The notes under the pieces were generated by a model that was not told the origin of the DNA, did not search any database, and was given only the letters and a program-made list of their open reading frames with translations. A stretch of 64,000 bases of DNA from contig JACNJL010000030.1 of assembly GCA_014382585.1 (NCBI GenBank), forward strand, positions 1 through 64,000, read 5' to 3'. This document shows, piece after piece, positions 24,475 through 33,115 of the stretch. Every line of letters begins with the position of its first letter. The stretch's first letter is position 1. Both the position numbers and the translations under genes were made by a program. Origin of the DNA: Limisphaerales bacterium. Lineage in GTDB: Bacteria > Verrucomicrobiota > Verrucomicrobiia > Limisphaerales > UBA1100.

Positions 24475-27285
24475 TTATTTTGACTTCAACGACTGCAAGT
24501 AGGCCAGCAGGTCGGCGAGTTGTTCGGGGGTGAGGCCGGCGGCGAGGCCGGGGGGCATGGAGGAGTACTCAATTTTTTCGCGTTTGGCGATTTGGGCGGT
24601 GGGAATGTCCATGGCCACGCCGACGGCGGTGCGGATGCTGATGGTGTCGTTGCTCTCCAGCGTCACAAAGCCGACGTGCGTTTTCTTGTCCTTGGTGGTG
24701 AAGGCGTAGGTGTCAAAGCCCTGCGCGACGACGGCGTTCGGTGTGAGGATGGACTGCAACAGCTCGGTGGGTTTGTAGCGTTTTCCGATGTCGACGAGGT
24801 GCGGGCCCTTGGGCGTTTGGCCGTCGGCGGTGGTATGGCAGGCGATGCAGGCTTGGGTGGTGAAGAATTTTTTGCCGCGTTGGGCATTGCCTTTGGCCTT
24901 GAGGGCGCGGTCGATGGATTTCTCCACGCCGAGGGTGGCGACCCAGGTTTTGGGATCCCCGGTGGGCGCGGCGATCTTGAAAGGCGCATTGGCGTTGTTG
25001 TTGGCGGCTACGGCGGTGCCGGCGGGGAGATCTTTCAGCGATATTTTGTGGCTGGCCAATTGCGCTTTCACGTTCTCGACGGTGGCCTTGGGTGCCTTGG
25101 CGAGGGCGGTCTTGAGGCCGGCCTCAATGGCGTCGCTACCGCTCCATTTTTCGCGGGCGTAGTAGGGGCCGGTGGTGTCCGGGCGGGTGCCCCACCAACC
25201 TTCGGAGTAGCCGCCTTCGCGATGGTACAAACGCACGAGGGTGGCGAGGGTGGCGGGATCGGGATTCTTGGCGGCACGGGCGTTCAGGGCGGTGACGACT
25301 CGGTCGTCGTGAATGTATTTCAATACCGTGAGCGCGGCGTGGTCGCGTGTGCCGTCGAGTGCGCCGAGCAAAGTGTCGACGGGCTTCAAGGCCACCAGCG
25401 TGCGTGTTGCAAGATGCGGGATGACGGCGGCAGGATTGGGCTCGTTGTGGCTAGGCGCTTTGCTGAATAAAGGCGTGGCGACATGAGGGAGGATCGCGGC
25501 CGCTGCTGAGGCGTCGCCGAGGCGGCCAAGGCTAATGAGCGCCTGTGCGCGCAAGCGCGGATTCTTGCTGTCGAGCGCGCGGACAAAGATGTCTTTCTTC
25601 AGGCCTTTCAATTCGCCGGCGCGATCGGTGAGGGCGCGCAGGGTGAACTCGGCGATGTCCGCATGGCCGGCGAGTTTGAGGAGATCGTCCTGTGCCTTGG
25701 CACCGTTGAGTTGTTTGAGGGTGAAGATGGCGGCGACGCGGCCGGCGAGGGGCACGGCTTTGTTCGCGGCGAGCGCGTTGAGCTTGGCGGTGCGGGCGGC
25801 GCTGGTGCCGCGGCGCAGTAGCTCGAATTGCGCGTGCAAGTTCTGCTGTTGGCTCGGGCCGATGAGCAGATCGAACAGGGCGGCATCGTCAATTTTGGTG
25901 ACGTCCGGGAACGGTTCGGGTTTGAAATCCTCGGGCACCACCTGCACGACGAAGCCGACATTCGGTCCGCTGTAGGCGAACTTGCCGCCGTGCCAACTGG
26001 CTACGTACATGCGGCCGCTGGCGTCCACGTCGATATCGGTCGGGCGCGGGATGGTGAGGAAGGTTTCCTGATGTGCGTCAAAGGTCGGTCCGTTGGCGGG
26101 CGGGTTATGCAGGAACACCGCGCTGCGGCCCCAATCGCAGGTGTAGGCGCCGTGGTTGAAGGGCTTGGGCCAGCGGGTGTCATGATAAAACATGCCGCCG
26201 CAACCGGAGCCGCCGCCGTAGTCTTTGAGGGTCGGGAAGATTTCGCCGGGGAAATTCTTGTACCATGAAGGGTAGCCGTACTCGGCGCTTTGCATGATGT
26301 GGCTGAAGCGCACGTTCCAGCCGCCGCCGTCGTTGGTGTTATCGCGCGTGAACATGTTCAGGTAGGGATCGATGCACGCATCGAGAATGTTGCGCAGGCC
26401 CCAGCAGTAAATTTCCATGTCCGTGCCGTCCGGACGCACGCGGACGATGCCGCCGCCGCGTCGGCTGAGCACGCGGCCATCGGCGCCCACGGCCTTGGTG
26501 AATCCGAAGTCGCCCACGGCGATGTAAATCCAGCCGTCGATGCCCATGCGGATGCCGTTGGTGGTATGGTCGGCGCCGCGTTTGGAAACGTAATCGGTGC
26601 TGATGCCTTCAATCAGGCGCTTCTCCTTATCGGCCACGCCGTCGCCGTTGGTGTCCTCATACAAGGTGAGGAAGGGCGGGTGCAGCACCCAGAGTTTGCC
26701 GTTGTCGAAAATCAATCCTCGCGGATGATCCATCTTGGCGAAGGTATTCACCTGATCCGCCTTGCCATCGCCATCAGTATCAATGCAGCGCACCACGCGG
26801 CCGCGGCCTTTCTCCTTGCCGAGGCTGCCTTGCTCATCAATGCCCACAAACACCTCGCCCGTGGCGGCGGCCGTGAGGCACACGGGATAATTCACCTCAG
26901 TCGGCGCGGCGAAGAGCGTCACCTCGAACCCTTCCGGCGCCCGCACCCCGTTGATGCCGGTAGCGGCGTTGTTGCTGCCGTTTTCAGCGGCCTTCATCAC
27001 CTTGCGCGGCAGCTCGGGCAGGGCGCCCGTGTGCGCTTCGAATTCCCAAAGGCTGCCCCACACGCCGGTGCTGGCGCCGAGGAAGGTGATTTTGAAATGC
27101 TTCGCGCCCTTGGCCTCCACCTTGTGGGGCGTGATTTGTCGGACCTCCTGGTTCTTGGATTGATCGACAACCGTTTTCCAGGTCTCACCGTCGCTGGAAG
27201 CCTCGACAGTGTATCGGTAGGCAGCGTTGTTTTTTTCCCAAAGGATGCGGATGTGTTGCACATCCGCGGCTTCTTTCAGCTCCAC
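24475..27285 (-). CDS. PVC-type heme-binding CxxCH protein (F5/8C, propeller, HEAT, cytochrome c), lacks its own proper start
   Basis: 936 residues if begun at GTG 27285, but that codon falls inside an F5/8-type C domain whose first strand (AVDGNPATRWCAQGG, GQWLQV) is coded upstream in the same frame with no ATG, GTG or TTG before a stop near 27489. Residues after the F5/8C part form the PVC dehydrogenase-like propeller (GVRAPEGFEVTLFA, DGWIYIAVGDFGF), then HEAT-like helices, then cytochrome c (CIACH) ending GLTPEQLADLLAYLQSLKS. The frame is joined to the ThuA gene through a slippery A-tract (27450-27456), so the true product is probably a ThuA fusion of about 1,270 residues. Periplasmic; role in sugar oxidation is inferred. 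Confidence 0.85.
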   Translation of the reverse strand: MELKEAADVQHIRILWEKNNAAYRYTVEASSDGETWKTVVDQSKNQEVRQITPHKVEAKGAKHFKITFLGASTGVWGSLWEFEAHTGALPELPRKVMKAAENGSNNAATGINGVRAPEGFEVTLFAAPTEVNYPVCLTAAATGEVFVGIDEQGSLGKEKGRGRVVRCIDTDGDGKADQVNTFAKMDHPRGLIFDNGKLWVLHPPFLTLYEDTNGDGVADKEKRLIEGISTDYVSKRGADHTTNGIRMGIDGWIYIAVGDFGFTKAVGADGRVLSRRGGGIVRVRPDGTDMEIYCWGLRNILDACIDPYLNMFTRDNTNDGGGWNVRFSHIMQSAEYGYPSWYKNFPGEIFPTLKDYGGGSGCGGMFYHDTRWPKPFNHGAYTCDWGRSAVFLHNPPANGPTFDAHQETFLTIPRPTDIDVDASGRMYVASWHGGKFAYSGPNVGFVVQVVPEDFKPEPFPDVTKIDDAALFDLLIGPSQQQNLHAQFELLRRGTSAARTAKLNALAANKAVPLAGRVAAIFTLKQLNGAKAQDDLLKLAGHADIAEFTLRALTDRAGELKGLKKDIFVRALDSKNPRLRAQALISLGRLGDASAAAAILPHVATPLFSKAPSHNEPNPAAVIPHLATRTLVALKPVDTLLGALDGTRDHAALTVLKYIHDDRVVTALNARAAKNPDPATLATLVRLYHREGGYSEGWWGTRPDTTGPYYAREKWSGSDAIEAGLKTALAKAPKATVENVKAQLASHKISLKDLPAGTAVAANNNANAPFKIAAPTGDPKTWVATLGVEKSIDRALKAKGNAQRGKKFFTTQACIACHTTADGQTPKGPHLVDIGKRYKPTELLQSILTPNAVVAQGFDTYAFTTKDKKTHVGFVTLESNDTISIRTAVGVAMDIPTAQIAKREKIEYSSMPPGLAAGLTPEQLADLLAYLQSLKSK

Positions 27286-27434
27286 CTGCAGCCATTGCCC
27301 GGCGGATCCGCCTTGGGCGCACCAGCGTGTGGCCGGATTGCCGTCGACGGCGTTTTTCGCGAAGTTGTTTTTGTTCGCCTCCTCAGAGCTCGCCTTGGCC
27401 GTAGCGCCGGTGGCCGCACTCTTGGGAACGGAAG

Positions 27435-28298
27435 CTACCGCTTTAGTTTCTTTTTTTTTTGGGACTGCGCCGACGGTTTGGTGTTCAGATCAAACGATTC
27501 CTTCTTCGGCATGGCCACCGTCCAGTCTTCCTTTTTTGTAGCCCACAAAATGCCGCGCGCCACGAGGTTGAGATAGCGTGCGTCGGCCACGGTTACGTTG
27601 TTGTGGCCGAGCGAGGTGCTGAACACCCGCGTGCCGTGGTAATCATTAGTCCAAGCCACCACCGCCTTCGCGTTGCCCTGTTCACCCCGAGCGACCACAG
27701 TGGCCGTGGGCAGTACCTGAATGTTGTTGTAGAGTTCCTCGTTCTGGGTCGTCCAGTTCTTCACGTCCTTGGTGATGAAAGGCACGTTGTTTTCAAACTT
27801 GATATCAATCGGGCGTTGCGGGCCGTGCCCAGTGGATTGCAGGCCGATGTACTCAAACCATTTCGCGTTGGCATCGGTGAGCTTTACCGGCGCGCGAAAA
27901 TTGCCGAACCGATACGAGTGCATCGCGCAGTGGAGGTTCACGCCCGGGATGCCCTGCTTGTGTGGCGCGAGCACGCCGGCGATCGTTTTCGGATCATTGA
28001 TACCGGCCGAGCATTCGTCGTGGATCACCAGATCATACCCCTTGGCGTAATCAGCATTGCCGTAAATGGCCAGAGGCGGCTTGGTGCTTTTATCGGGCGA
28101 ATGGACGTGATCAATCTTGATGTTCAGACGCCGCTCCAAGCCCTGCTGCAGGATGTCCTTTTGCTTCGCGTAATCATGGCAGCAACCGCCAGTGATCAGC
28201 AATGCGCGGAGAGGTTTGGGCAGCGGCTTCTTGTTGTCCGCATAAAGATTTCCAGCCAACAGGCCGGCCAGGGTGAGGGTCAGGATAATCGCTCGCAT
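27435..28298 (-). CDS. ThuA domain protein (N-terminal part of a probable ThuA-PVC heme fusion)
   Basis: 287 residues with a signal peptide (MRAIILTLTLAGLLAGNLYA). ThuA-family segments are present: RALLITGGCCHDYAKQK, YDLVIHDECSAG, GVNLHCAMHSYR and GLQSTGHGPQRP, ending in a region typical of the glutamine-amidotransferase-like ThuA fold. The last codons read through ten A residues (CAAAAAAAAAAG) and stop four codons later at TAG 27435-27437. A -1 slip on A-AAA-AAG would continue directly into the PVC-heme frame. As a separate protein it would be a small periplasmic ThuA of unknown substrate. Confidence 0.9.
   Translation of the reverse strand: MRAIILTLTLAGLLAGNLYADNKKPLPKPLRALLITGGCCHDYAKQKDILQQGLERRLNIKIDHVHSPDKSTKPPLAIYGNADYAKGYDLVIHDECSAGINDPKTIAGVLAPHKQGIPGVNLHCAMHSYRFGNFRAPVKLTDANAKWFEYIGLQSTGHGPQRPIDIKFENNVPFITKDVKNWTTQNEELYNNIQVLPTATVVARGEQGNAKAVVAWTNDYHGTRVFSTSLGHNNVTVADARYLNLVARGILWATKKEDWTVAMPKKESFDLNTKPSAQSQKKKKLKR
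27450..27456 (-). other. candidate -1 frameshift / transcript slippage site A AAA AAG
   Basis: On the minus strand ten A (27451-27460) precede G 27450, giving the heptamer A-AAA-AAG in phase with the ThuA frame, the same slippery sequence used in E. coli dnaX. After a -1 shift the next codons (GAA ACT AAA GCG) open the PVC-heme frame. The zero frame ends at TAG four codons on. No strong stimulatory hairpin or upstream Shine-Dalgarno was evident, so RNA-polymerase slippage on A10 or a homopolymer sequence error remain alternatives. Confidence 0.6.
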
Positions 28299-28344
28299 GG
28301 ATTCGTGGGTTCCGCGTTCACGCTACCCGCAGCGTCCGAGAGAA

Positions 28345-29754
28345 TCAATCTTTACTCGCCACTTTTTCCAGCATGTCTAACAGCGCTTTTTGGATTTTCA
28401 CCGAAGCGAGGAGTTCCAGAGTGCAGGTGCCCATCCAGGTTTCGTAGCCGCCGAGGGTGTGTTGGCGCGGGGTGGGGAGGTAGCCGTTGTGGCCGTTGGC
28501 CAGCTCGATGGTGAAGGTGGCCTGGGGCAGGGGGCTCTTGGCCTTGAGGGTGAGGCCGATTTCGCAGAGGACTTCGCAGGGAATACTGGTGATACCCACT
28601 TCGCCGAGGCGTAGGGCCTGCAGGACGATTTCCTCTTCGCGCGGTCCGTTGGCCAGAGCGAGCGTGCGGTGGGCGTAGGCGGTGGCGAGGCCGGAGAGGG
28701 GCTTGGGCGCGGTGCCGGCGAGGACGGCTTTGGCGTAGGCGATTTGTTTGGCGGTGGGTTGCCGATTCTTAAGCGTGAGAAAGGTTTGCTCCATGGCGAG
28801 GGTGATGTCCTTTCGGAAGGTCACTTGCTTGTGCGCGGCGAGTACGCGATCGGCGACGATTTGGGCGACCTCGTTCATGCGTTGCATGGGTTTCTGGCGT
28901 GGGCGCGGGACGCGGAAGCTGATGTTGTTGATATCGCCGCTGGTGCCGTTGGACATCATGGCCACGTAGCCTTTGTCTGCGCCGAGGGCTTGCTCGATGA
29001 GTCCGGCGAACACGCCAAAGTAATCGGCGGACACGCCGCCGGCCGGCAGACCGCCGACGTAGTGCAGCGAGTAATTGGCTAGCAAGGCAATCGGGCGGCT
29101 GTTCCGCGTGCTGCGCAGGGAAATGAAATGCACTTCCGGATCCGTGGGGCCGGCGGGTCGCTCGATGAGATTGCGGGGCGGGTTCATGCGCACGATGTCG
29201 TTTGGGCTGCCGAAGGGGTTCACCGCAATGCCGCCGGGTTTCATGTGCCAGCGCCGGTTAAAAATCTCCTCGGGCACGAGCGCCACGCCGTGCGCCATCT
29301 CGGCGGGAACAAGATTTTTCTCAGCCTGCGCAATGGCTTCGGCAATGCCTTCGACCAGTTGCTTGAAGTAGGCGCGATGGGCGGCGTCATCGCGGTTGGT
29401 GCGGCGATCCTTGCCCGGTGGCGCGGTGTGCGTGTGCGTGGCGGCGACGAGGATGCGGTCCGGCCGCACCTTTGTTTTCTTCGCTGCCAAGGCCTTGGCG
29501 CGGTCGAGGTAATTGCGGCCGATCAGGCAGTTGTCCACGATCACAATGGCCAGTCTTGTTTGGCCGTCATCGCAGACAATGGCCCGCGCATGCAGGGGAT
29601 CATGCGCCTTGTCCGCGAGCCGTTCGCTGAAGGAGCCGACCAATTGCACCGGCCACACCTTGGGCGTGATATCCACCTTCGCCGCGCCCGCGTGAAATTC
29701 CGCCCAAGCAGTGGTGGTGATGAGCAGCAGGGTGGCGAGCAGATGGATTTTCAT
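28345..29754 (-). CDS. secreted neutral/alkaline ceramidase-like protein
   Basis: 469 residues with a signal peptide to about residue 18. FHAGAAKVDITPKVWPVQLVG, DPLHARAIVCDDGQTRLAIV and ILVAATHTHTAPP are the start of the neutral ceramidase-like fold, with the HTHT segment matching its Zn-binding HxH. The C-terminal half (GEVGITSIPCEVLCEIGLTLK) matches the same family in PVC bacteria. True ceramidase action is unproven; most bacterial members of this size are uncharacterised hydrolases. Its ATG abuts the stop of the downstream sulfatase, so the two may be translated together. Confidence 0.85.
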   Translation of the reverse strand: MKIHLLATLLLITTTAWAEFHAGAAKVDITPKVWPVQLVGSFSERLADKAHDPLHARAIVCDDGQTRLAIVIVDNCLIGRNYLDRAKALAAKKTKVRPDRILVAATHTHTAPPGKDRRTNRDDAAHRAYFKQLVEGIAEAIAQAEKNLVPAEMAHGVALVPEEIFNRRWHMKPGGIAVNPFGSPNDIVRMNPPRNLIERPAGPTDPEVHFISLRSTRNSRPIALLANYSLHYVGGLPAGGVSADYFGVFAGLIEQALGADKGYVAMMSNGTSGDINNISFRVPRPRQKPMQRMNEVAQIVADRVLAAHKQVTFRKDITLAMEQTFLTLKNRQPTAKQIAYAKAVLAGTAPKPLSGLATAYAHRTLALANGPREEEIVLQALRLGEVGITSIPCEVLCEIGLTLKAKSPLPQATFTIELANGHNGYLPTPRQHTLGGYETWMGTCTLELLASVKIQKALLDMLEKVASKD

Positions 29755-31209
29755 TTAGCGACCTTCGCGTTTGTCGGGGTTGAAGTTGGGGTTTTTCGTG
29801 GGCATTCTCGCGCCGGTTTCCTTGCGCCATTGGGCGAGTTTGGCGGCGAGATCTTTGACTTTGTCAGGATGCTTCTTGGCGAGATCGTTTTTCTCGCCGA
29901 TGTCCTCGGCCAAATTGAACAGCTCCAGCCGGCCGTCCTCGTACCATTCGATGAGCTTCCAGTCGCCCTCGCGCACGGCGGCCGTGGGGGCGTTGCCCTG
30001 ATTGCCGTAGTGCGGGTAATGCCAGTAGAGCGCGCCGCGGTCTTGGGGTTTGCCGCGCAGGGCGGTGGTGAAACTCACGCCGTCAATGGGCAGGGGCAGC
30101 TGCGGCTTGAGACCGGCCATTTCCATGATGGTCGGGAAAAAGTCCGTGCTGGTGACGGGCGTGTCGTTCACGCTGCCGGGCTTGGTGACGCCGGGCCAGC
30201 GAACCATCATCGGTTCGCGGATGCCGCCTTCGTACATCCAGCCTTTGCCGCCGCGCAGGGGGAGGTTGCTGGTGGGATGCCCTTCGCTGGTGGAGAGGCC
30301 GCCGTTGTCGCTCATGAAAAACACAACGGTGTTCTCTTCCAACCCGTGTTCCTTGAGGCCCTCGAGCACCTTGCCGACGGCGAGATCCATCGCCTCCACC
30401 ATGCCGCCGTACACGGCGTGCTCCTGCACGAGGCGCACCTGACGGTTGTGTTCCTTGCCCCACTTGGCCTCAAGGCCGCGCTCTTTTTTACGGGCGAGAT
30501 ATTTGTCACGCAAATCCGTGCGCGAGATCAACGGCGTGTGCACGGAATAAAACGAAAGATAAGCGAGGAAGGGCTTGTTCTTGTTGGCGGCCATGAACTT
30601 CACCGTTTCGCTGGCGAGCCGGTCGGGCAAATGTTCCCCGTCAGGGCCGTCTTTCAGGCGCGGGTTGCCGTAAGGCGAAAAATATTTTTTGCCGCCATAA
30701 GGCCCGCCGCGATGGTGACCGCCCTGATTGATATCAAAGCCCTGATCCTCCGGCCAGAATCCTTCGTTGCCCAGATGCCATTTGCCGGCGAAGAACGTGG
30801 CGTACCCGTTTTCCTTGAGCGCCTCGGCGAGGGTGAATTCCTTGAGTTCCAATTGGCGTGTGTAGGTCGCGGGCAGGAGGCGGGTGTTGCGCCGCCACGC
30901 CTTGCCGGCGGACGCACCGATGTAATCGGTGACGCCCGTGCGGGTGGGATAGCGGCCGGTCATAATGCTCGCGCGCGTGGGGCTGCAGACCGGGCAGGCG
31001 GCGTAGGCGCTGGTGAATTTCATGCCCGAAGCCGCGAGCCGATCGCAGTTGGGCGTGTCGTAAAACGAACTGCCGAAGCTCTTGAGGTCCGTCCAGCCGA
31101 GGTCGTCGACCAGGAAAAAGACGAAGTTGAGCGGCTTGGTTTTTTGTTCAGCCTGCGCCACAGCCGGGCACAGGAACGCTAGCAGGAGAAGAACGCGAAA
31201 CGCTTTCAT
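29755..31209 (-). CDS. secreted S1 sulfatase; 5' end shared with the gene at 53817-55313
   Basis: 484 residues from ATG 31209. Signal peptide MKAFRVLLLLAFLCPAVAQA then EQKTKP; motif C75-SPTR. VDDLGWTDLKSFGSSFYDTPN, GKWHLGNEGFWPEDQGFD and FMSDNGGLSTSEGHPTSN mark a sulfatase branch common in marine bacteria. The first ~27 codons and upstream DNA are about 89% identical to those of the sulfatase at 53817-55313, although the bodies belong to different branches. Complete active site, so presumably functional. Confidence 0.94.
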   Translation of the reverse strand: MKAFRVLLLLAFLCPAVAQAEQKTKPLNFVFFLVDDLGWTDLKSFGSSFYDTPNCDRLAASGMKFTSAYAACPVCSPTRASIMTGRYPTRTGVTDYIGASAGKAWRRNTRLLPATYTRQLELKEFTLAEALKENGYATFFAGKWHLGNEGFWPEDQGFDINQGGHHRGGPYGGKKYFSPYGNPRLKDGPDGEHLPDRLASETVKFMAANKNKPFLAYLSFYSVHTPLISRTDLRDKYLARKKERGLEAKWGKEHNRQVRLVQEHAVYGGMVEAMDLAVGKVLEGLKEHGLEENTVVFFMSDNGGLSTSEGHPTSNLPLRGGKGWMYEGGIREPMMVRWPGVTKPGSVNDTPVTSTDFFPTIMEMAGLKPQLPLPIDGVSFTTALRGKPQDRGALYWHYPHYGNQGNAPTAAVREGDWKLIEWYEDGRLELFNLAEDIGEKNDLAKKHPDKVKDLAAKLAQWRKETGARMPTKNPNFNPDKREGR

Positions 31210-31259
31210 GGATGCGCCGAGTGTGCCCGTGGCCCGCGCGGCGTGCAAGTCCGGCCTTG
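31138..31259. repeat. left copy of ~120-bp direct repeat (upstream DNA plus signal peptide)
   Basis: Matches 55242-55362 in the same orientation with about 13 differences in 122 bases by hand alignment, including an unbroken run of about 40 identical bases within the signal-peptide codons. It covers the signal-peptide codons of the sulfatase at 29755-31209 and the whole gap to the next gene, ending at the last base before that gene's stop region. Confidence 0.85.
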
Positions 31260-31261
31260 CG

Positions 31262-33115
31262 CTACTGCAGCAATCTCACGGTCAGGTAATAACATCCCAG
31301 TTCGTTTCCCGTGCGAGCTTTGCCGGTTGGTTTGAGCGAAAAATATGGCGAGAACTTGTGGTCGCCTTTGGTTAATCGGTGTGTAAAGCGAATTGATCCG
31401 TCGTCTTCTCCGACAGGCTTTGTTTCGAGGTCTTTGCCGTTAATCCGAAGTGTTGCCGAGAATACCGGCAACGCTGTTCCGCGAACGGCCGAGTAACTCG
31501 GCAGACATCCGCGTGTCACCGGAAGGGCTTCGACGCCCTCGCGAATTTTTAGCCCGGACTCTTCGGGCCAACGACGAACTTCAAACGTGTAATGGCCGGT
31601 GTGCGCGACGTGAACCGCCCAGTGTCCAGGGAACTGAATAGGCTGCTCTGAACTTTGGCCGCGAGCGCGGCGCTGGCTGGCGCGCCTGATAATGCCCTGA
31701 TTCCAAGGCGGGTACGCGTCGATCCATTGAAGTGCGGTGATTTGCAATTCGGGCGTCTGCGGTGTTCCCACGTAAACCTTTGATGTGCGCGAGAAGGTTG
31801 GCTCAAGTTCCGCCCACCAATTTTCATACCAGGTGTGCAGTCTTGCAAACTGTTGTGGATGCGCTTTGGCGATGTTGTTCTGTTGCCCCGGATCCTGGCG
31901 GATATCGTAGAGTTCCGTGCCTTTGACCAGTCGCCACTTGCCGGACATCACGGATGAGTCCTTCCACTTTCGGGGAACTTGAATCCGTTGCGAATCGGAA
32001 ACGACCACTCGGCTTTCCCAATCAAACGAAGTATCGCCTTTACCGGAAAGCAGCTTGCGAATGGAGCGCCCGTCAAGGGCGACTTGCTTGTGCGGCTTGA
32101 CATCACACAGGTCCAGTAATGTCGGCAGGACGTCGACCATGTGGGTTAGTTCCTTCACGCGAACATGGTTTGAATAACCCCCATCCGGCCAGTGCAGCGC
32201 GAACGGGACGCGATGGCCGCCTTCGTACGGACTGATCTTTCCGCCCCGCATGCCCGCGTTGAATTTCTTGGGGCCGACCGAACCATTGTCGGTGGTGAAG
32301 ATAAAGAGGGTGTTGTCGGCGACGCCCAGCTCTTCCAGAGAAGCGCGCAGGCGTCCAACGTTCTCGTCGATGTTCGTCACCATTCCGTAGAACGCGGCGG
32401 CTTGCCGGTTCTCTTTTGGGTAGAGCTGCGAATACTTTGGCGGGCAGACCCACGGCTTGTGCGGCGCGGTGGTCGCGATCCAGGCAAAGAAGGGTTTCTT
32501 ACGGGCGACCTGTTCCTTGATGAAGCGCTGGCTCTCGGCGAAGAACACGTCGGTGCTGTAACCGGTGGACGGCGTCGGCTTGTCGTTTCGGAAATGATGA
32601 TCGTCGAAGTAATCGTTGTCCCAATAGTCCGCGGTCACACCGGTCGCGCCACCGCGGATGCAGTACGCTAGGTCAAAGCCACGGTCCTGCGGTCGATACG
32701 GGTAATGATCGCCAAGGTGCCATTTGCCGAACATGCCGGTCGAGTAACCGGCGGCTTGGAAATGATCCGCGATCGTCACCTCATCCTCGTACATCATCGC
32801 GCGAGCGAAAAAGGTGTGCCAGACGCCCGTTCGATTTGTCCATCGTCCCGTCAACATCGACGCCCGCGTCGGCGAACACGAAGGCGCGACATGAAAGTCC
32901 TCAAGCCAGACCGATTCCGCGGCAAGCTTGTCCAAGTGCGGCGTCTTGATGATCGGATTGCCGGTGAATCCCAGGTCGCCATAGCCCTGATCGTCAGTGA
33001 TCACAAAGACGACGTTGGGCGATTTCTGAAGGGGCTGCGCTGCGAGTGTTGGGCAGATTGTCGCAAGAGACAGGCACAACATCGAAATGAGTGACGTTAG
33101 TTTCATGGCCTTCAT
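31262..33115 (-). CDS. secreted S1 sulfatase with C-terminal beta domain
   Basis: 617 residues; starts at the first or second Met (33115 or 33106). Signal peptide to about residue 25; motif C80-SPTR. ITDDQGYGDLGFTGNP, GKWHLGDHYPYRPQDRGFD and FTTDNGSVGPKKFNAG define the branch, shared with the frameshifted gene at 51217-53797. Residues about 500-617 form an extra domain (GHWAVHVAHTGHYTFEVRRW, FSPYFSLKPTG) that is predicted beta-sandwich. It is the first gene inside the direct-repeat-bounded segment and visibly less GC-rich than its left neighbours. Confidence 0.93.
   Translation of the reverse strand: MKAMKLTSLISMLCLSLATICPTLAAQPLQKSPNVVFVITDDQGYGDLGFTGNPIIKTPHLDKLAAESVWLEDFHVAPSCSPTRASMLTGRWTNRTGVWHTFFARAMMYEDEVTIADHFQAAGYSTGMFGKWHLGDHYPYRPQDRGFDLAYCIRGGATGVTADYWDNDYFDDHHFRNDKPTPSTGYSTDVFFAESQRFIKEQVARKKPFFAWIATTAPHKPWVCPPKYSQLYPKENRQAAAFYGMVTNIDENVGRLRASLEELGVADNTLFIFTTDNGSVGPKKFNAGMRGGKISPYEGGHRVPFALHWPDGGYSNHVRVKELTHMVDVLPTLLDLCDVKPHKQVALDGRSIRKLLSGKGDTSFDWESRVVVSDSQRIQVPRKWKDSSVMSGKWRLVKGTELYDIRQDPGQQNNIAKAHPQQFARLHTWYENWWAELEPTFSRTSKVYVGTPQTPELQITALQWIDAYPPWNQGIIRRASQRRARGQSSEQPIQFPGHWAVHVAHTGHYTFEVRRWPEESGLKIREGVEALPVTRGCLPSYSAVRGTALPVFSATLRINGKDLETKPVGEDDGSIRFTHRLTKGDHKFSPYFSLKPTGKARTGNELGCYYLTVRLLQ

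Follow-up and report, generated by a model that had tools for sequence, protein, structure and literature searches.

A conserved A tract between the ThuA and PVC-type heme-binding reading frames of marine Verrucomicrobiales: a probable dual-product gene served by transcriptional slippage

A gene on the reverse strand of the window (the whole stretch of 64,000 nucleotides that was analysed, GC content about 59%) is probably a dual-product gene dependent on transcriptional slippage, and it is unusual in that its A tract has been kept while its frame drifts. Comparison of sequences leads us to favour, with moderate confidence, a single gene that gives a short ThuA protein and a long fusion protein through slippage at a run of ten A residues (A10). 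RNA polymerase would stutter on A10, generating a pool of mRNAs that vary in their number of A residues. Faithful A10 transcripts, and others in a wrong phase, would be translated into a secreted ThuA domain terminating a few residues past a lysine tail, while transcripts with one extra A (or two fewer) would encode a secreted ThuA-F5/8C-propeller-HEAT-cytochrome c fusion of 1,274 residues. Since either frame would yield both products, the templated frame would be free to drift, and the tract, with close stops in both other phases, would have been maintained across two families as it did so. The original prediction had proposed slippage that yields short ThuA and fusion from one gene; this is the best-supported reading in its polymerase form, and the ribosomal form fits worse.

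The junction can be described from the ThuA side. The ThuA ORF (27435..28298, reverse strand; Pfam ThuA PF06283, E=3.3e-15) corresponds to the short product of 287 amino acids and begins with a probable signal peptide, recognised by inspection (MRAIILTLTLAGLLAGNLYA; 28239..28298, reverse strand). It ends in SAQSQKKKKLKR followed by a stop, encoded by CAA-AAA-AAA-AAG-AAA-CTA-AAG-CGG-TAG, so that the tail of the short product consists of the poly-A tract, LKR and TAG. The A10 tract, the proposed slippage site, occupies 27451..27460 (reverse strand) and is followed by a G at 27450, giving an A-AAA-AAG heptamer in phase with ThuA; four further sense codons lead to the TAG (27435..27437, reverse strand), exactly as had been predicted. 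This stop arises from the fusion-frame codons GTA-GC, and the underlying GTA codon is present in seven of the eight copies of the gene in the first of the two families considered below.

The downstream frame lies in phase -1 relative to ThuA and runs for 1,004 stop-free codons (24475..27489, reverse strand). Its first ATG, GTG or TTG is a GTG at 27283..27285 (reverse strand), 165 nt past the tract, and that GTG is not a credible start because it falls within the F5/8C domain: a protein initiated there, at residue 56, would lack roughly the N-terminal third of the domain and would have no signal peptide. The claim that this frame is startless ahead of the GTG and reaches upstream into F5/8C thus holds, the frame being open from 27489, and joining it to the ThuA frame with one extra A gives 1,274 amino acids, the length foreseen for a -1 shift. 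Downstream of the junction, the frame encodes an F5/8 type C domain (27040..27399, reverse strand; PF00754, E=8.6e-22, residues 18-137 of the frame read from 27450), a DUF7133/PVC-type heme-binding CxxCH protein N-terminal (propeller) domain (26002..26949, reverse strand; PF23500, E=9.7e-37; TIGR02604, E=3.8e-37), HEAT-like repeats that score under the Pfam cut-off, and a C-terminal heme-binding cytochrome c domain (24490..24891, reverse strand; TIGR02603, E=3.1e-31; Pfam Cytochrom_C) with a CIACH motif at 24849-24835 (reverse strand). Membership of the PVC-type heme-binding CxxCH proteins is supported by scores above both cut-offs (128.5 against 122.2 bits for TIGR02604, 108.1 against 68.15 for TIGR02603).

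A scan of 84,980 species genomes places this arrangement in context. One-frame proteins with ThuA, F5/8C and the remaining domains were sought, as the original prediction had advised, and about 45 were found in planctomycetes, most at 40-58% identity; none of them carries a run of at least nine A residues (A≥9) at the junction, which makes the fusion probably the ancestral form. Close relatives of the gene (>65% identity) within the window's own order fall in two families of marine Verrucomicrobiales, f1 and f2, where 15 gene copies have A8-A11 in the linker between ThuA and F5/8C. Nine of these are in frame, five are one A short and one has an A too many. The f1 copies out of frame by -1 are those of G000 (the genome of the window; A10), G010 (A11) and G017 (A10); G012, G015, G018 and G019 (all A10) and G014 (A8) keep the frame. 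Among the f2 copies the frame is kept in G177, G179, G181 and G187 (all A9), shifted by -1 in the two of G189 (A11 and A9), and shifted the other way in G190 (A10). Comparison of the junction among relatives reveals either one frame or the same split, and a separate start ahead of F5/8C, the observation that would have told against the prediction, was looked for among them and never seen. Four relatives from the genus of the window encode the fusion in one frame with no tract, and for them the short product must be dispensable; in a fifth, G004, F5/8C has been lost.

The frame state itself is not clustered on the trees. It requires 4-5 switches, no fewer than with shuffled labels; clustering of the split states, which would have spoken for ancient inheritance, was looked for and not seen (one topology, from the whole protein, misplaced G014 because of its swapped C-terminus). 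Several copies have individual histories. The two G189 copies (L122 and L123) are diverged (dS 1.29) and lie in one MAG, both out by -1 at tracts of A11 and A9. The G010 gene (L107) is mosaic, with a ThuA half almost the same as that of G014 (L120; dS 0.11) and a PVC half about equally close to G000 (L001; dS 0.52) and to G014 (0.63), halves of different affinity that point to recombination inside the gene. In G183, a contig end falls within the A tract of the gene (L115:1-20), as heterogeneity of tract length among reads might cause.

Despite the split, the downstream part appears to be in use. Past the junction motif, every split copy keeps an uninterrupted downstream frame of 953-975 codons. 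Pairs of split copies have a dN/dS of 0.066-0.095 (dS 0.60-1.29), which does not exceed that of fused pairs; with no start of its own that serves, this part must be made from the ThuA start. The same observations dispose of the reading that conventional gene callers would impose, namely two ORFs with the second beginning at GTG 27285, and of the related idea that the second part is a decaying pseudogene. No start lies ahead of F5/8C, the second part has no signal peptide, its frame is constrained and intact, and homologues in distant relatives are fused; both readings, which we regard as highly improbable, were rejected.

The conserved tract is unlikely to be a product of chance. Across its 3.7 Mb, the genome of the window contains about 29 runs of A≥9, of which three are A≥10 (G010 has about nine A≥9 runs and G017 about seven), and A≥10 runs are scarce in related genomes, at 0-13 matching positions per genome. 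The junction holds one of those three A≥10 runs and has A8-A11 counterparts in 14 further copies, which is more than coincidence. AAA makes up about half the lysine codons of these genes, and synonymous divergence between lineages is close to saturation. When codons were redrawn with peptide and codon usage preserved, a run as long as that observed had a per-lineage P of 0.008-0.41, and a Fisher combination over eight lineages gave P=1.4e-4, a value to be taken as a guide only because the lineages are not wholly independent. The flanking stops behave similarly: both non-fusion phases terminate 3-19 codons from the tract start in 15 of 15 copies. With downstream codons redrawn, stops this close have P=0.003 in G000 and 0.03-0.33 in the remaining copies, whereas the four relatives that lack the tract have one phase without a stop for 33 codons (P about 0.7-0.8). 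The locus thus combines features by which transcriptional slippage is recognised: an A/T run of about nine or longer at the frame transition (A10 here, A8-A11 in the 15 copies), early stops in the alternative phases, and a run and ORF organisation conserved in non-identical homologues (Baranov 2005, PMC1088944), the -1 organisation being common to G000, G010, G017 and the two G189 copies at dS from 0.6 to saturation. In many genomes, avoidance of such runs becomes evident once they reach nine (PMC1088944). Our literature search found no report of transcriptional slippage in Verrucomicrobia.

The most serious rival is an error of sequencing or assembly, in which the true tract would be A11 here and differ by one A in the other five split copies, the gene being in frame everywhere. 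All copies come from draft genomes, nearly all short-read assemblies and mostly MAGs, in which long A runs are the usual site of indel errors; two of the six split copies belong to one low-coverage MAG, and the scattering of frame state on the tree is what errors would also produce. Against this, G012, G015, G018 and G019 are in frame at A10, the same genomes contain assembled runs of A11 and longer at other sites, and of the split copies one has a tract of just A9 and a further one is off in the opposite direction. A control set of 142 distinct A≥9 tracts in related genomes provided a comparison: other tracts internal to genes were in frame in about 33 cases and split in 1-2, against 6 of 15 split here (P=0.0086), with the reservation that the in-frame class was assigned from the length of the open frame and may include a few non-genes. 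Restricting the comparison to A≥10 tracts leaves a weak excess over other genes (5/9 against 1/9 split, P=0.066). Each control split was inspected individually: L058, L070 and L084 proved to be operon starts, and in L300 an apparently complete phosphatidyltransferase precedes another ORF. The only real candidate was L077:870-2431 (G004:C5), a FliF-like gene apparently split at A10, which is either another candidate for slippage or a fault of assembly. General assembly error is therefore unlikely as the whole explanation, and the homopolymer error that had been put forward as the sober alternative has lost ground while staying a rival; the control comparison does not clear individual copies. 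Even were the error real, the conserved tract with its flanking stops would still stand. A quite unlikely reading, a shade below error in our estimation, is phase variation, whereby replication slippage would alter tract length, cells would switch between fusion and short ThuA, and the assembly would have caught one state. A hypermutable tract that is conserved while the frame is labile between related species, a secreted protein and the contig end in G183 would all fit. Runs of A≥9 also slip in transcription, however, so the OFF state would leak, and phase variation is compatible with transcriptional slippage; the two are not mutually exclusive.

Programmed -1 ribosomal frameshifting at A-AAA-AAG, in the manner of E. 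coli dnaX, is very doubtful. G000 and G017 carry a perfect in-phase heptamer, and a shift of exactly -1 would put five of the six split copies in frame. Yet no Shine-Dalgarno-like element was seen upstream by eye, and the downstream RNA folds no better than shuffles in three f1 copies (z -0.4 to -0.6), G190 being the sole copy with a better, weak fold (z -1.5). A tRNA-Lys(CUU) gene is also present, so that AAG is not left to a single tRNA-Lys that reads it weakly; this presence is the condition invoked for Thermus using polymerase slippage instead (PMC5009743). Nor does an AAG follow the run in G010 and G189a, and G190 requires the opposite shift, which such a mechanism could not supply. Polymerase slippage on A≥9 would serve all copies, G190 included. 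With no Shine-Dalgarno element or RNA structure found, and with tRNA-Lys(CUU) in the genome, transcriptional slippage is favoured over the ribosomal mechanism. The label 'dnaX-like' in the original prediction accordingly suits the RNA-polymerase slippage of Thermus dnaX better than the ribosomal -1 shift of E. coli dnaX, given the missing stimulators, the tRNA-Lys(CUU) and the opposite direction in G190.

What the two products might do is suggested by their domains and neighbours. ThuA and a PVC-type dehydrogenase with cytochrome c stand behind a neutral/alkaline ceramidase-like gene immediately upstream (28345..29754, reverse strand; the neighbourhood is kept in the first family) and a sulfatase, also a conserved neighbour (29755..31248, reverse strand), and this company suggests a role in periplasmic oxidation, of sugars or glycans for instance, during glycan or lipid breakdown. 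In G014 (L120), G018 (L125) and G019 (L152), a plastocyanin/azurin-type copper domain stands in place of the C-terminal cytochrome c (Pfam Copper-bind, E=6e-11 in G014). Copper thus appears to have replaced heme in the electron-accepting module, which supports electron transfer as the function of the C-terminus. The short ThuA protein would then lack the redox module. If slippage occurs and both products are used, the ratio of short ThuA to fusion may be regulated; that the site is selected for a ratio of ThuA to ThuA-dehydrogenase-cytochrome, and that the genomic frame drifts since both frames give both products, is a proposal we make only tentatively. As a separate matter, G000 is grouped with genus g1, yet its ThuA/PVC gene, sulfatase and ceramidase (window 24475-33115) are closest to g5, the sulfatase and ceramidase neighbours being 95-96% identical to those of G010; the mismatch suggests transfer of the cluster or a question of classification.

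Gene callers split such genes or label them broken, and a large secreted redox enzyme of free-living marine bacteria would thereby be misannotated. The 15 copies, with A8-A11 in and out of frame, and their close relatives without a tract form a natural experiment on product ratios set by slippage, one that falls outside AT-rich symbionts and pathogens. In those better-known settings, Buchnera and Blochmannia share the retention of poly-A frameshifts between species without gene decay, as summarised in PMC3017870 (citing Tamas 2008 and Wernegreen 2010), and differ in being AT-rich, with more than 100 coding A≥9 runs, whereas such runs are few here. In tssM1 of Citrobacter rodentium the template ORF is likewise disrupted, with a poly-A run (A11) ahead of the stop; an extra A restores the full-length protein, the run gives mRNAs with 10-15 A residues, and both lengths of protein and their ratio are needed (PMC4256274). 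That gene belongs to another protein family and has been studied experimentally, whereas the ThuA gene is known from sequence, its tract traced over two bacterial families. The ThuA-fused PVC-type heme-binding CxxCH proteins (TIGR02604/TIGR02603) of planctomycetes have the same domain order in one frame, with the tract absent. Close in design is Thermus thermophilus dnaX (A9), which shares an A run within an ORF, a long product from one mRNA phase and a short product from nearby stops in both others (PMC1088944, PMC5009743). In T. thermophilus the templated frame is that of the long product; in the gene described here, for which slippage is proposed from sequence, the template phase varies by species and encodes the short product in G000.
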